A DNA stretch of 33,433 bases, from the NCBI GenBank assembly GCA_902768325.1, contig CACXKY010000040.1:1-33433 (forward strand). Reading direction: 5' to 3'. Below the pieces are notes generated by a model that did no database searches, had not been told where the DNA came from, and worked only from the letters and a program-made list of their open reading frames with translations. Origin of the DNA: Fibrobacter succinogenes (GTDB taxonomy: Bacteria > Fibrobacterota > Fibrobacteria > Fibrobacterales > Fibrobacteraceae). Position 1 is the stretch's first letter. Every line of letters begins with the position of its first letter. The position numbers were made by a program, and so were the translations under genes. Of this stretch, positions 16,082 to 22,995 are shown piece after piece.

Positions 16082-17413
16082 TTAGCGCGTGCGGCGCGGG
16101 AGTTCCGACGCATGCTTTTCGAGCCACACGGCGTCTTCAAGAGCGCGTTCGGCTTCGGTCGCCCAGTCAGAATCCGGGTACTGCTGCACGACTTCGCGGT
16201 AGCGCGAAACCGCACTGTGGAAGTCGCGGAGTTCGCGGTAGATGTTGCCCATCTGCAACATCGCGAAATAGCGTTCATCGGGGCTGGCCTCGGATTCCAC
16301 GACCGTCCTATACATCTGGAGGGCCGATTCAAAGCTGCCAGCCTTGAAATAGATGTTGGCCTTCGCAATAGGAGTATTTTCTTCCGTATTCACCGCCACA
16401 CGGGACTTGGGTGCCGGAGCGGCGGGCGTATCTTGCGCCACTTCTACCGGAGCCGTTTCTGTCGCCGTATCAGCAGAAGCGTCGGCCTTCGCAGCCTCGG
16501 CAGCCGCCTTGATTTCGGCCAGGCGGTCTTCGACTTCCTTGCGGTACGTGGCACCGGGAGAAGACTTCTTCAGGTACGCAGCCAGGGCTTTCTTCTCGAG
16601 GTCGGCCTTGCCCGTCTTCTTGTACACCAGCGCGAGGTAGTAGTTCGCATCGTTACCGCGTTCCTTGAAAGCGGCACCCTTCTTCAGGTTAAATTCAGCC
16701 TTGTCGTATTCGCCCATCTCGTAACGGGTCACACCCGCATAGAAGTAGGCACCCGCATCACCGGGCTTCTTCGCCAAGATTTCACGCCACACCTGGGCGG
16801 CTTCCTTGTACTTGCCTTCGGCGAGCAGTCCCCTACCCTTCTCGAACGGGTCGTTTGCAGCCGGGGCTTCGCTACGGCTGGGCTCGGCGACTTTCGCAGG
16901 TTCTGCCTTGGGCTGTTCCACCGGGGTTGCCTTCGGCGGTTCCGGCTTGGGTTCGGGTTTCGCCTCTACCGGTTTCGGTTCCGGAGCAGGCTCGGCCACC
17001 TTGACCGGTTCCGGTGCGGGAGCGGCCTCTTCGACAGGGGCGGCCACTTCTTCGGCAGGCCTGTTCTTCGGGTCCTTCGCGCGTTCAGCATCGGCCTTGG
17101 CCTTCTGGTTCAGGGCCTCGTAGACCTTGGCGGCGCCTTCATAGGCGGCACTCATCGTCGGTTCAAACTTGTATGCGAGCCTGTAGTTGGCAAGAGCCCC
17201 GCTGTAATCCTTCATCTTCATGCGGACTTCCGCAGCGGCGAAGTAGGCGGTAGCGTTCTTCGGATCTTCGGCCAATATCGAGCGGTATTCACCGAGAGCC
17301 ATTTCGTATTCGCCCTTGGCCTCGAAGCGAGCGCCCTGTTCCATACGGGGGTCAGCAGCAAAGGGCAGGGAAACCAAACAAGCTAAAAATAAAGCAGGAA
17401 TCCGAATATTCAT
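16082..17413 (-). CDS. Exported TPR-repeat protein with Pro/Glu-rich linker
   Basis: A 443-residue periplasmic or surface protein. The signal peptide ends LVSLPFA. An N-terminal TPR block (about 20-105: ARFEAKGEYEMALGEYRSIL, AYFAAAEVRMKMKDYSGAL...) is followed by a linker of Pro, Glu, Ala and Lys (about 112-190, many EPKP/PEPKP units). A second TPR block follows (about 195-310), then an acidic Ala-rich stretch and a C-terminal TPR pair (about 350-430) resembling the YfgC/Bam-type ANIYFKAGSFESALQMYRTVV pattern. Such proteins act as scaffolds; no enzymatic motif is seen. ATG 17413 is used, because the longer frame starts with TTG and would put residues before the signal peptide. A TAGATT lies 7 nt before the ATG and no Shine-Dalgarno is present. 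It is a single-gene unit between two terminators. Confidence 0.85.
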   Translation of the reverse strand: MNIRIPALFLACLVSLPFAADPRMEQGARFEAKGEYEMALGEYRSILAEDPKNATAYFAAAEVRMKMKDYSGALANYRLAYKFEPTMSAAYEGAAKVYEALNQKAKADAERAKDPKNRPAEEVAAPVEEAAPAPEPVKVAEPAPEPKPVEAKPEPKPEPPKATPVEQPKAEPAKVAEPSRSEAPAANDPFEKGRGLLAEGKYKEAAQVWREILAKKPGDAGAYFYAGVTRYEMGEYDKAEFNLKKGAAFKERGNDANYYLALVYKKTGKADLEKKALAAYLKKSSPGATYRKEVEDRLAEIKAAAEAAKADASADTATETAPVEVAQDTPAAPAPKSRVAVNTEENTPIAKANIYFKAGSFESALQMYRTVVESEASPDERYFAMLQMGNIYRELRDFHSAVSRYREVVQQYPDSDWATEAERALEDAVWLEKHASELPRRTR

Positions 17414-17443
17414 GGAATACAATCTAGCAAATTAAAATCCATA

Positions 17444-17478
17444 CAAAAAATCCAGCCCGGGGGACGAGCTGGATTTTA
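17444..17478 (-). terminator. Rho-independent terminator of groES-groEL
   Basis: On the minus strand AAATCCAGC (17476-17468) pairs with GCTGGATTT (17456-17448), followed by TTTTTTG. It lies 23 bp past the groEL stop. Confidence 0.88.
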
Positions 17479-17500
17479 TGGAGTAGAATGAAAAAGGCGA

Positions 17501-19153
<1,653 letters not shown>

Positions 19154-19168
19154 TTAAACTTTTTTTGT

Positions 19169-19260
19169 ATGGGGGATGGGGTATGAGGTCGCTTCGCTTT
19201 GGGGTATGAGCACGCTCTCTTCGAGAGCTTTGAGCAAAAGTTAGGCGCCAAAGGCGCGAT
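19169..19260. repeat. Modular hairpin repeats between groES and groEL
   Basis: Near-heptameric units (ATGGGGG, ATGGGGT, ATGAGGT) lead into three stem-loops: GC-TTC-GC within TGAGGTC...TTTGGGG; GCTCTC-TTC-GAGAGC (19214-19228) within TATGAGCAC...TTTGAG; and GCGCC-AAA-GGCGC (19245-19257). The last core is the reverse complement of the one at 10935-10947. The array lies in the groES-groEL transcript. Confidence 0.7.
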
Positions 19261-19263
19261 TAT

Positions 19264-19545
19264 TTACAGAGTAGCGATGACGTCCGGTTCCTTCACGATG
19301 AGGTAGTTTTCGCCGTCGACGGTCACTTCGGTGCCGCTGTACTTGCCGTAAAGCACCACGTCGCCCACCTTGACTTCCATCGGGACGATTTCGCCCTTGT
19401 CATTCTTGCGGCCCGGGCCCACGGCCACGACCTTGCCCTGCATGGGCTTTTCCTTGGCGTTATCCGGGATGAAGAGACCCGAGGAGGTCTTCTGTTCGGC
19501 TTCGGCCGGCTTGACAACGATTCGATCTGCTAAAGGCTTGATCAT
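19264..19545 (-). CDS. groS: Co-chaperonin GroES (Cpn10)
   Basis: The 93-residue heptameric lid of the GroEL chamber. The sequence is typical: [19 protein letters not shown] at the start, the mobile-loop region [41 protein letters not shown] and [16 protein letters not shown] 19545 is preferred over the GTG two codons upstream, because AAGGA lies 9 bp before the ATG and other GroES proteins start close to this residue. It is first in the operon, and its promoter region carries a -24/-12 motif (19638-19654). No CIRCE element, the HrcA operator common before groESL, was found. Confidence 0.97.
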
Positions 19546-19637
19546 TTTCACTTTTCCTTTTTTGCGGGCTTTTTGCGGCCCCTTTGTTTAAAAACTTAGT
19601 CCAGATTGGACCATTTTCTTGTTTTCGTTGCATTATA

Positions 19638-19654
19638 AGCAAAAGGCGTGCCAA
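19638..19654 (-). promoter_or_regulatory. Sigma-54-like (-24/-12) promoter upstream of groES
   Basis: The minus strand reads TTGGCACG, then CCTT, then TTGCT: a full match to the sigma-54 consensus TGGCACG-N4-TTGCW, with GG and GC at the invariant positions. Transcription would start near 19628, giving a leader of about 80 nt. A TATAAT (19637-19632, minus strand) overlaps its 3' edge, but no -35 hexamer lies at 16-18 bp from it, so a sigma-70 promoter is the weaker reading. Confidence 0.6.
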
Positions 19655-19685
19655 GCCATGACAGGCGTAAAAGGGGGCCCTTTAC

Positions 19686-19730
19686 GTTCAAAACTGAAAC
19701 AAACATCTATAATGTGTTTAATTTTGAAAC
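19686..19730. promoter_or_regulatory. A/T-rich dyad with a central TATAAT, between groES and the XRE gene
   Basis: The 15-base arm at 19686-19700 and the arm at 19716-19730 are near-inverted copies (shared CAAAA/TTTTG, AAAC/GTTT and GTT/AAC blocks). A perfect plus-strand TATAAT (19708-19713) lies between the arms. It could be an operator, perhaps for the adjacent XRE protein; a plus-strand transcript from it would run antisense to the XRE gene. This is inference from symmetry and location. Confidence 0.35.
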
Positions 19731-19749
19731 ACCACCTTTTTCGGGGACG

Positions 19750-20073
19750 TCATGTTTCTTCGTGGTACTTCTTCGCCTTATTTATATACTGGACAGCCTC
19801 GGAACTCCCAGACGAATGTCGTTCCAGCCCGGTTTCCTGCTCGTAGATGCGCATGAACTTTTCCAACATCTTGGCCGGAGTCAACCCCACGCCCCACGCC
19901 AACTTGCAGAACGTTTCAAACGAAGGCCCCCGAAGTCCGGTTTCCAACTGCGAAATGAATTGCCGGCTCAGGCCCGTCGTCGCCGACAGTCCTTTCTGCG
20001 TATAGAGCGTCTCCTGCCGCACCTGCAGCATCAGGCGCCGGAAGCTCTTGGCAAAGGCTTTTCGCTTGTTCAT
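19750..20073 (-). CDS. XRE-family helix-turn-helix regulator
   Basis: A 107-residue DNA-binding protein. The helix-turn-helix (HTH_3/XRE) covers about 15-70: RLMLQVRQETLYTQKGLSATTGLSRQFISQLETGLRGPSFETFCKLAWGVGLTPAKML, with the typical QKGLS...TGLSRQFISQLE recognition helices. The last about 30 residues are polar and may mediate dimerisation. Such regulators are often autoregulatory; the dyad at 19686-19730 lies just past its 3' end. No toxin partner adjoins it, so an antitoxin role is not supported. TAAATT ends exactly 6 nt before the ATG and no Shine-Dalgarno is present. Its target is unknown; groES, transcribed in the same direction downstream, is the nearest candidate. Confidence 0.85.
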   Translation of the reverse strand: MNKRKAFAKSFRRLMLQVRQETLYTQKGLSATTGLSRQFISQLETGLRGPSFETFCKLAWGVGLTPAKMLEKFMRIYEQETGLERHSSGSSEAVQYINKAKKYHEET

Positions 20074-20085: not shown

Positions 20086-20171
20086 GTACAAACTATCGCC
20101 AAGTGCGCAACGCTTTGTATGCGAAAATGTAAGTTTTTTATAACTTATCTACAAAAAGCGGGCAATTCTAG

Positions 20172-20294
20172 ACCGGACAGGCCCAAATTCCAGAAAGCGC
20201 AACCAGTCATGGCCTGTCCTCTCGCCGCCACGACCCGTCAACACGAGTCGCTTGCGGCTCACAAAGGCTCCAGGATTCTCGTCCTACAGTCGGT
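20172..20294. ncRNA. Structured element A, distal copy behind tRNA-Arg
   Basis: This 123-nt segment can fold into a closed structure: ACCG (20172-20175) with CGGT (20291-20294); GACAGGCC (20176-20183) with GGCCTGTC (20211-20218); an outer stem GCCGC (20224-20228) with GCGGC (20254-20258) around an inner hairpin (CGACCCGT/ACGAGTCG, one mismatch); and a conserved segment GGCTCCAGG...TCGTCCTA. The same architecture with different stem sequences is element B. The transcribed strand cannot be decided, since each strand has one wobble that becomes a mismatch on the other. Not a known family that I recognise. No gene lies in 20074-20539; besides the two elements the stretch holds hairpins and the tRNA fragment. 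Confidence 0.5.
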
Positions 20295-20298
20295 ATAA

Positions 20299-20335
20299 AA
20301 GAAGAGCCCCCCTCTTTACGAGGGGAGCTCTTCTT
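20299..20335. terminator. Terminator-like hairpin between element A and the tRNA 3' fragment
   Basis: AAGAAGAGC (20299-20307) pairs with GCTCTTCTT (20327-20335); inside, CCCCT pairs with AGGGG. T-rich sequence follows on the minus strand (TTATA) and, more weakly, on the plus strand (TCT). It occupies the same place relative to the tRNA fragment as the terminator behind the complete tRNA. Confidence 0.6.
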
Positions 20336-20365
20336 TCTGCGGGTGCCAGGACTCGAACCTGGAGC
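20334..20365 (-). pseudogene. Duplicate of the tRNA-Arg 3' end (T-arm and acceptor strand only)
   Basis: These 32 bases are identical to 20536-20567, which is the 3' part of the complete tRNA-Arg gene plus three bases beyond it. The T-arm and the 3' acceptor strand with discriminator A are kept; there is no matching 5' half. The offset between the copies is 202 bp. Confidence 0.85.
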
Positions 20366-20374
20366 GGGTTTTAG

Positions 20375-20496
20375 ACCGCACGAGCCTTTCGCATATTTGG
20401 ACTTCCGGTCAGGCTCGTGCTCTCGCAACCACGGCCAGTTAATACTGGTCGCGGCTTGCTCACGACGGCTCCAGGTTTTTCGTCCTAATTTTCGGT
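20375..20496. ncRNA. Structured element B, proximal copy behind tRNA-Arg
   Basis: This 122-nt element has the same folding plan as element A: ACCG (20375-20378)/CGGT (20493-20496); a long stem CACGAGCCT (20379-20387)/AGGCTCGTG (20411-20419); an outer stem with GCAA and TTGC around an inner hairpin GGCCAGT/ACTGGTC; and the conserved GGCTCCAGG...TCGTCCTA. The 43-nt middle section aligns with A without gaps (20421-20463 against 20220-20262). Stem bases differ in pairs. It is followed directly by a strong hairpin with T runs on both strands. Confidence 0.5.
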
Positions 20497-20505
20497 ATTA
20501 TATGC

Positions 20506-20538
20506 AAAAACCCCTCTCTTATCGAGAGGGGCTTTTTT
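20506..20538. terminator. Bidirectional terminator between tRNA-Arg and element B
   Basis: CCCCTCTC (20511-20518) pairs with GAGAGGGG (20524-20531); five A precede and six T follow. It terminates the minus-strand tRNA transcript and could equally end a plus-strand transcript of element B. Confidence 0.85.
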
Positions 20539-20539
20539 C

Positions 20540-20613
<74 letters not shown>

Positions 20614-20697: not shown

Positions 20698-22995
20698 ATG
20701 GAAATAGTCAAAAAATACCTATTCATATGTCGAGACTTTCTCCGTTCCCTTTTCAGCGACAGGAAGGTCGTCAAGTGGCTCATTATTTTTGGCATTCCCG
20801 TCATCCTCGGGATTATCGCCGTTTTCGCCACCTACATTCACTTCTTGCCTGAACTCCCGTCGCTCTCGCAGCTCGAACAGATCAACCCGAAGCTGGTCAC
20901 GAACATCTACGACATGAACGGGAAAATCGCCCACGAATATTATGTGGAACGCCGCGAATGGGTCCCCTACGACTCCATCCCTATCGACGCCATCCACGCC
21001 GTGATGGCTACCGAAGACCGCGCATTCTTCAGCCACTGGGGCATGAACGTTTGGGCCATCCCCTCGGCCATCCTGGAAAGCGCCTCCAGCGGCAAGAAGC
21101 TCCGCGGCGCATCGACGCTCACGCAGCAGCTGACCAAACTCCTCTTCCTCTCGCCGGAACGTTCCATTTCCCGTAAGATCAAGGAAGCGATGACGGCCAT
21201 CCGCATCGAACAGACCTACACGAAGGAAGAAATCCTTGAATTCTATATGAACGAGGTATACCTCTCCGGCGGCAACTACGGTTTCCAGGCCGCGGGAAGG
21301 TTCTACTTCGGCCACTCGCTCGACAGCCTCTCGATTCCGGAATACGCCGTACTCGCGGGTATGCTCCAGCGTCCGGAAGCCTACCGCCCCGACCGCCACC
21401 CGAAAGCGAGCCTCGAGCGCCGCAACACCGTGCTCTACGCCATGTACGACGCGGGCTACATCAGCAAGGAAGACTACCACAAGTACGTAGAAACGCCCAT
21501 CACGCTGAACCAGAAGGAAGAGGAAAGCGGTTCCGGCCTGTACTTCTACGAAGAAATCCGCAAGTACATGGAAAAGAAGTACGGCGAGAACTCCCTTTAT
21601 GCTGACGGCGTATCCATCAACTCGACCATCGACCCCGAAATCCAGGCGTTCGCCGACAGCGTCGCCCGCGTGCAGGTCGAAAAGGTCCGCCGCCGCGTCA
21701 AGTACCGCGCCACACGCCGCCTTTTCTTGACCAAGAAGTACGGCATGCCCGAAGATAGCGTCGTCGCCCACTTCGACAGCATCTACGCAGACTTCAAGAA
21801 GAACTACCTCGCCAACGATACGAACCCCGACCCGAACAAGCGCCGGTTCCCGGACAGTATCCAGTACCACCATCCCGAAATCGCGGCAATCCTGATCGAG
21901 AACGAGACGGGAGCCATCCGAGCGATGGTCGGCGGCAGCGACTTCAACAAGTCCCGTTGGAACAGGGCGGTGCAGTCCCTGAGGCAGCCGGGTTCGAGCT
22001 TCAAGCCTATCGTCTACGCAACGGCCATGGACAACGGCGCGTCCCCGTGCGACTCCGTGAACGACCAGCCAGTGACGATCCCCGACCCAGACGACAAGAA
22101 CCCGAACAAGGTCTGGCGCCCGGGTAACTTCGAACACGACTTCGAAGGCATGATGACGCTCCGTAGGGCCCTCTACCGCTCCAAAAATCTCCCCGCCATC
22201 CTGACGGGCATGAAGTACGGGCTCAACAACGTGGTGAACTACGCCCGCAAGTTCGGCATCGTGCGCGCACCGCTGATGGCCGTTCCGAGCCTCGCCCTCG
22301 GTTCCGTCGGCGCGACGCTGATGGAAATGACTTCGGCCTACACGGTGTTCCCGAACGGCGGTAACCGCATCGAACCGTACATGATCGAATCCATCGTGGA
22401 CCGCAACGGCGAAACGATCGAGAAGAATTCCAAGGTTGAACACGAAGTGCTGCGCCCGGCATCGGCCTACATCATGGTCGACATGCTCAAGGACGTGAAT
22501 ATCCGCGGTACGGCCGCACGCGTCTGGGCAAGCGGCTTTACGCACCCGAGCGGCGGCAAGACCGGTACCACCAACGACTACACCGACTGCTGGTACATCG
22601 GCTTCACCAAGCAGTACACCATGGGCGTGTGGGTCGGTTCCGACAGCCCGGGTACGCTGGGCGCAGGCCATACCGGCACCGAAGACGCCCTCCCCGTGTG
22701 GATAGCCGTGATGAAGGAACTCCACAAGAACCTCCCGCGCAAGCCCTTCCCCGTTCCGGGAGGAGTCGTGAGCAGGGGCATCTGCAACCACACCGGAAAA
22801 ATCGCCGGCGAATTCTGTTCCGAAAAGACGTACTGCCTCTATACGGCAGGCTACGCTCCCGAAGAAACCTGCGACGGCAACCATTTCGAAGTAAAAACCA
22901 AGTCTGCCGACGACGCAACGTTGTTCAGCAACAAGGGTTCCATAGAGACCAAGAGCTCTACAAACGGCCCGAAAAAAGCTAGAAAAATGTTCTAG
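20698..22995 (+). CDS. Bifunctional penicillin-binding protein 1A (GT51 plus transpeptidase)
   Basis: A 765-residue class A PBP that polymerises glycan strands and cross-links peptides on the outer face of the inner membrane. A short cytoplasmic tail and one membrane segment (about 27-48) precede the GT51 domain: VMATEDRAFFSHWG with catalytic Glu106, GASTLTQQLTK, EEILEFYMNEVYLSGGNYG, and LAGMLQRPEAYRP. A linker with KVRRRVKYRATRR follows. The transpeptidase domain has SxxK with nucleophile Ser433 and Lys436 (GSSFKP), SKN in LYRSKNLPAI, and KTGT with Lys621. The last about 70 residues hold four Cys (GICNHTGK...FCSEKTYCLY...EETC), as in some PBP1A tails. It is divergent from tRNA-Arg. The transcript appears to be leaderless or nearly so. 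Confidence 0.95.
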   Translation: MEIVKKYLFICRDFLRSLFSDRKVVKWLIIFGIPVILGIIAVFATYIHFLPELPSLSQLEQINPKLVTNIYDMNGKIAHEYYVERREWVPYDSIPIDAIHAVMATEDRAFFSHWGMNVWAIPSAILESASSGKKLRGASTLTQQLTKLLFLSPERSISRKIKEAMTAIRIEQTYTKEEILEFYMNEVYLSGGNYGFQAAGRFYFGHSLDSLSIPEYAVLAGMLQRPEAYRPDRHPKASLERRNTVLYAMYDAGYISKEDYHKYVETPITLNQKEEESGSGLYFYEEIRKYMEKKYGENSLYADGVSINSTIDPEIQAFADSVARVQVEKVRRRVKYRATRRLFLTKKYGMPEDSVVAHFDSIYADFKKNYLANDTNPDPNKRRFPDSIQYHHPEIAAILIENETGAIRAMVGGSDFNKSRWNRAVQSLRQPGSSFKPIVYATAMDNGASPCDSVNDQPVTIPDPDDKNPNKVWRPGNFEHDFEGMMTLRRALYRSKNLPAILTGMKYGLNNVVNYARKFGIVRAPLMAVPSLALGSVGATLMEMTSAYTVFPNGGNRIEPYMIESIVDRNGETIEKNSKVEHEVLRPASAYIMVDMLKDVNIRGTAARVWASGFTHPSGGKTGTTNDYTDCWYIGFTKQYTMGVWVGSDSPGTLGAGHTGTEDALPVWIAVMKELHKNLPRKPFPVPGGVVSRGICNHTGKIAGEFCSEKTYCLYTAGYAPEETCDGNHFEVKTKSADDATLFSNKGSIETKSSTNGPKKARKMF

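Follow-up and report, generated by a model that had tools for sequence, protein, structure and literature searches.

Fibrobacter, a gut bacterium, is a main degrader of cellulose in the rumen. In a 33,433-nt stretch of DNA of Fibrobacter succinogenes (contig CACXKY010000040.1; this whole stretch is referred to as the window), two elements built on the same plan (positions 20172–20294 and 20375–20496) lie next to a tRNA-Arg gene and have stems that differ in sequence and retain their pairing. Do these elements represent an undescribed structured RNA, as originally predicted from the coordinated changes in their stems, or are they copies of a mobile DNA repeat?

Structure of the repeat unit

Two elements of common plan are indeed present, but alignment with relatives proved the length of about 122 nt assigned to them wrong: the repeat unit comprises 93 nt in copy 1 (20170–20262; R1 match of 87 bits, E 5e-24; DNA fold) and 91 nt in copy 2 (20373–20463; R1 match of 90.3 bits, E 4.5e-25; DNA fold), both on the + strand with a period of 203 nt, compared to ~92 nt in the family. 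The plan of the unit on the + strand is AGACC – hairpin 1 – TCTC – hairpin 2 – TCAC, which on the bottom strand reads GTGA – hairpin 2 – GAGA – hairpin 1 – GGTCT. The unit is therefore composed of two adjacent palindromes, and ahead of each (on the 5′ side, bottom strand) stands a tetranucleotide that is invariant and stays unpaired. AGACC, TCTC and TCAC, all of them unpaired, hardly vary across the copies of alignment A1.

Hairpin 1 of the family has a stem of 8–10 bp and a loop of mostly 25–30 nt. In copy 1 (20175–20219) it is formed by GGACAGGCC and GGCCTGTCC around a 27-nt loop, as indicated by folding and by covariation of helix 1; in copy 2 the folds place it at 20378–20420. The invariant TCTC linker (GAGA on the other strand; invariant columns in A1) follows at 20220–20223 and 20421–20424. 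Hairpin 2 consists of a lower stem, a small internal loop and an upper stem, often with the tip GTTAATAC, and is located at 20224–20258 in copy 1 (folds; covariation of helices 2 and 3) and at 20425–20459 in copy 2 (folds), where this tip is present. The invariant TCAC end (GTGA on the other strand), at 20259–20262 and 20460–20463, is defined by invariant columns in A1 and by the right end at empty sites.

The middle blocks of the two copies (20220–20262 and 20421–20463) do align without gaps over 43 nt, with 30 identical positions, and the long stem (hairpin 1) has no mismatch in either copy and differs in sequence between them, just as described earlier. The inner hairpin (hairpin 2) is also present in both, but in copy 1 its upper stem carries one C.A mismatch. 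Both elements fold better than shuffled sequences on both strands, as RNA (z −3.3 to −4.3) as well as DNA (z −3.0 to −5.1).

The tRNA-Arg locus

The loop GGCTCCAGG...TCGTCCTA, previously regarded as a conserved part of the element, lies outside the repeat family and nearly reproduces the T-arm of tRNA-Arg in inverted orientation. The gene for this tRNA-Arg(ACG) is located at 20540–20613 on the minus strand (ARAGORN; Rfam RF00005, 61.7 bits), and its T-arm is GGCTCCAGGTTCGAGTCC. Comparison with the tRNA and with other species identified two inverted remnants of it on the + strand, at 20266–20286 (GGCTCCAGGATTCTCGTCCTA) and 20467–20487 (GGCTCCAGGTTTTTCGTCCTA); among the copies examined, related species have this segment at the same tRNA locus and at no other place. 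Inspection of the sequence also revealed two terminator-like hairpins with no assigned strand, one (20298–20335) with A/T runs on both sides and the other (20506–20536) behind the tRNA gene, together with a duplicate of the last 28 nt of tRNA-Arg (GCTCCAGGTTCGAGTCCTGGCACCCGCA; 20338–20365, minus strand), which matches the gene's 3′ end exactly. Judged from the sequence, this part of the window is a tandem duplication of a block comprising the repeat, the inverted T-arm remnant, the terminator and the tRNA 3′ end. Inverted flanks were rejected as a general feature of the repeat, since they are present only at the tRNA locus and in one array (L095), and isolated copies match the random expectation.

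The surroundings of the locus (16082–20073 and 20698–22995) encode a TPR protein, groEL and groES (minus strand), a small HTH protein (minus strand) and a PBP1A-like transglycosylase/transpeptidase (plus strand).

Distribution of the repeat

DNA searches yielded matches across the whole genus Fibrobacter. A covariance model of the unit, built from 17 copies, detected it in 60 of the 61 sampled Fibrobacter genomes, with up to 69 copies per genome. In a sample of the phylum the unit was found in 73/74 genomes of the genus, in five genomes of g17 and in one of g16, both of them other genera of the same family, and the model found it nowhere else in this sample; the homologues whose existence had been proposed as a check are thus numerous. 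Copy number differs between species from 1 to about 70. A scan of 84,980 species genomes with an exact pattern returned only Fibrobacter/Fibrobacterales records among the matches listed, and a viral origin was rejected because the strict pattern had no match in viral contigs.

The earlier statement that the elements belong to no known RNA family was upheld: the Rfam gathering score was reached by the tRNA only, so that a known family was rejected as their identity, and an Rfam search of the elements at E up to 10 produced only weak, chance-level matches. A literature search, exclusive of Text S8 (insertion sequences) in the paper on the S85 genome (PMC3079729), found no account of Fibrobacter repeats. 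The repeat family appears to be new and previously unlisted.

Covariation of the stems

Across 109 distinct copies, pairing holds in 90.3% of the pair cells, compared to 68.7% in shuffles and 29–42% with slid partners. Cells changed on both sides number 397, compared to 113 in shuffles, and neither the pairing fraction nor the count of two-sided changes was reached in any of 500 shuffles. The covariation inferred from two copies is therefore overwhelming in the larger alignment.

Strong covariation between repeat copies, however, does not prove a structured RNA, and what distinguishes the two in this case is the missing wobble bias. Over distinct stems in two alignments, 24 cells are G.T/T.G and 32 are A.C/C.A (19 of each in a first count). 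RNA transcribed from either strand should clearly favour one of these classes; since both are about equally rare, selection on RNA pairing, to which the covariation had been attributed, is unsupported. Only about 9 of 2258 cells show a one-sided change that keeps a standard pair. Copies at the same site in related species, which display no stepwise compensation, are identical, differ by single letters or have an entire stem replaced (L003 vs L043). Hairpin 1 has a TC/TC mismatch in more than half of all copies, so these letters are kept for a purpose other than pairing.

Covariation of this kind might also arise with neither selection nor function, if the copies were relics whose stems are kept perfect by quasi-palindrome correction, i.e. 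template switching during replication. The perfect pairing, the equal rarity of G.T and A.C and the few stepwise compensations among close orthologous copies fit such a process. It would not account for the near-invariance of the unpaired AGACC, TCTC and TCAC, or for insertions so young that related species still differ in having them, and we consider it improbable.

Arrays, insertion sites and nested modules

The unit forms tandem arrays with a period of about 94–98 nt, and in many cases a partial 5′ copy comes next. Comparison of two related genomes over about 400 kb identified several sites with a copy present in one and absent from the other. One genome contains both an intact gene for pyruvate:ferredoxin oxidoreductase (PFOR) and, near it, truncated 3′ copies of PFOR that bear the repeat in both orientations, and six insertion sites could be read in these fragments against the intact gene. 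The right end of the repeat is in register with TCAC (four sites), CCAC (one) or TCA (one); a few letters were lost or gained, and no clear target duplication was found at the six sites. Some PFOR sites are common to species of another genus (L389, L390, L392).

The dispersal, the polymorphism, the arrays and the insertion without clear target duplication are direct observations. The unit behaves like mobile DNA: it is scattered through genomes in many copies, some of them in tandem, it is polymorphic among related species, it shows nesting, and it occurs in both orientations within dead gene fragments. The two elements of the window probably (at a rough probability of 0.7) belong to a repeat of the Fibrobacteraceae that is dispersed, mobile as DNA and non-autonomous, and REP/MITE-like in its behaviour. 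The TCAC target was seen at PFOR sites only and not at the empty sites of gene ends, which counts against this reading.

At several loci (L174, G033:C4:369500–389400; the related L175–L178 and L389–L392), gene blocks at the 3′ end of PFOR are bounded by partial, repeat-bearing PFOR 3′ copies. They encode PDC-S01-like AAA/DUF4143 proteins, a PDDEXK nuclease and Fib_succ_major proteins. The PFOR 3′ end has the appearance of a hot spot for integration or exchange, common to two genera. A longer palindromic repeat, starting with TTGGGCGTTCCC and ending with TCCCTAACGC, abuts truncated PFOR copies in L174 (4482–5420 and 10560–10760) and L385.

Such gene blocks between copies, as well as the arrays and the folded, variable stems with fixed unpaired letters, are reminiscent of the attC recombination sites of integrons, and the units might accordingly serve a tyrosine-recombinase cassette system. 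This is very improbable, however, given that the unit has two hairpins instead of one and no R box, that inspection of the A1 consensus revealed no RYYYAAC/GTTRRRY boxes, that cassette genes are as a rule missing (most arrays have none between units), and that no integrase recurs beside the copies.

Other hairpin modules are nested within the repeat at fixed places. A second module (CCCACCTAAAGGTGGCCATGTACACT...AAGTGTCCAAAGG) is situated exactly at the TCTC linker in L051, L075, L106, L107 and L109. A third family, with the fixed letters GAGYGTCGCGA...CATGACCGAG, occurs inside the repeat or directly after a stop codon (L107, L208, L220; after adk in L234, L236–L240, L244 and L248), and a further insertion (ATAAACCTAAGCCGA...ACAGCAGAAACAA...) lies within the tip of hairpin 2 in L078 and L091. 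In L095 (G026:C22:43000–44800), four repeat copies alternate with a 96-nt piece that occurs five times and contains the start of a gene, flanked by GTACCGGGCGG/CCGCCCGGTAC.

Position of the repeats relative to stop codons

Of the independent first copies that lie outside the tRNA locus (about 127), about 44 begin no more than a few letters from where a same-strand reading frame ends, a fraction that is approximate, as the reading frames were called mechanically. A separate count gave 47 copies whose start falls between about −12 and +4 nt relative to a same-strand stop codon. The proteins encoded upstream of the repeat have plausible native C-termini, and empty relatives carry the stop codon at an unchanged place. 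The mirror-image arrangement relative to genes is rarer and shows no peak. In several species, the 5′ arm of the hairpin overlaps the coding tail of adk (AAGACCGCAAAGGC), with a matching 3′ arm (GCCTTTGC). The adk case suggested that stem 1 is copied from the target gene, which was rejected: subfamilies of loops and stems turn up again at sites unrelated to each other, and the 5′ arm is missing from empty sites, so that the entire unit usually moves together.

The position behind stop codons argues more strongly than any other observation for a role at mRNA 3′ ends, or for a TAA target preference. Were the former correct, the hairpin pair would be a structured RNA, a 3′-untranslated element placed directly after the stop codon that stabilises the mRNA 3′ end or senses translation termination, and that owes its spread through recombination to its usefulness. 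The stop-codon counts, the native C-termini with unchanged stop codons, the paired arms at adk, the folding superior to shuffles and the excess of two-sided pairing-preserving changes all agree with this explanation. It is nevertheless unlikely, because G.U is not in excess over A.C, both orientations occur within gene fragments, copy number varies widely between species, and the copies of the window are antisense to the tRNA, with no stop codon before them.

The same data bear on the mobile repeat. A neutral mobile element would not predict a sharp, sense-orientation peak behind stop codons, and this peak therefore counts against it, as does the retention of copies at one place across species, both at the tRNA-Arg locus and at the 3′ end of adk.

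Search for a mobilising gene

When the ORFs within 2.5 kb of the copies were clustered, only orthologous neighbours and common Fibrobacter proteins were obtained; no mobilising gene was found beside the copies and a recurring neighbour was rejected as mobiliser. Y1_Tnp (PF01797) is encoded by only 21 of the 61 genomes and is missing from the high-copy, near-complete genomes G026, G033, G079 and G081, so that REP/RAYT or IS200 was rejected as mobiliser. Reverse transcriptase (RVT_1, PF00078) was detected in 16/61 genomes and not in G026, G033, G005 or G081; reverse transcription (SINE-like spread) was rejected because several of the genomes without it are rich in copies. The missing mobilising gene, together with the distribution of Y1_Tnp, also counts against the mobile-repeat reading.

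Comparison with known palindromic elements

Among known systems, REPs are the closest to the repeat, which shares the broad features of REP-like sequences: its palindromic copies are short, numerous and scattered, lie for the most part outside genes and vary in number by species. The repeat further resembles the REP/BIME elements associated with RAYT in that a fixed unpaired tetranucleotide stands on one side of the palindrome and in that the copies are clustered and often close to gene ends. However, its tags are GTGA and GAGA (bottom strand) instead of the GTAG or GGAG of RAYT-linked REPs, its 92-nt unit combines two different hairpins head to tail, no RAYT gene flanked by the repeat was found, and several high-copy genomes have no Y1_Tnp gene at all. 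The position behind stop codons is a further feature that sets it apart. The repeat works like REP-type mobile palindromes and lies outside the RAYT-mobilised REPs.

Non-autonomous elements of the IS200/IS605 type (PATE) likewise possess subterminal hairpins. They insert beside a short target without duplicating it, a behaviour that agrees with the six PFOR sites of the Fibrobacter repeat, whereas the gene-end sites do not display the target. The Fibrobacter repeat has no linked transposase, and guide/target complementarity, known for IS608, is not evident. A published survey of GTAG- and CGTC-tagged families reported that the CGTC families, which are palindromic and in part located inside genes, have no dedicated transposase (PMC3733652). 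They resemble the present repeat in all these respects, but differ from it in tag, size, host phylum and the plan of two hairpins; Fibrobacter is not mentioned in that survey (PMC3733652).

Possible mechanism and significance

If the repeat is mobile DNA, a trans-acting enzyme may recognise its hairpins as single-stranded or cruciform DNA and join the GTGA/TCAC end to a TCAC-like target. The TCAC of the inserted copy could then serve as the next target, which would generate arrays. Recombination between copies may swap entire stems, in which case the palindromes would stay perfect as their sequence changes; such an exchange would yield covariation in the absence of selection on RNA.

A more specific version, which we put forward as a tentative possibility, is a mobile element that uses a novel transposition system (neither Y1/RAYT nor reverse transcriptase) and targets stop codons in the sense orientation, i.e. 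a self-spreading 3′-UTR module. If true, such a module would provide numerous mRNAs of one bacterial family with a standard 3′ end made of two hairpins. If the mobile-repeat reading is right, Fibrobacter carries a large family of hairpin repeats that is missing from the libraries searched and has no known mobiliser, and the position behind stop codons connects a mobile repeat with mRNA 3′ ends in a way that can be tested.
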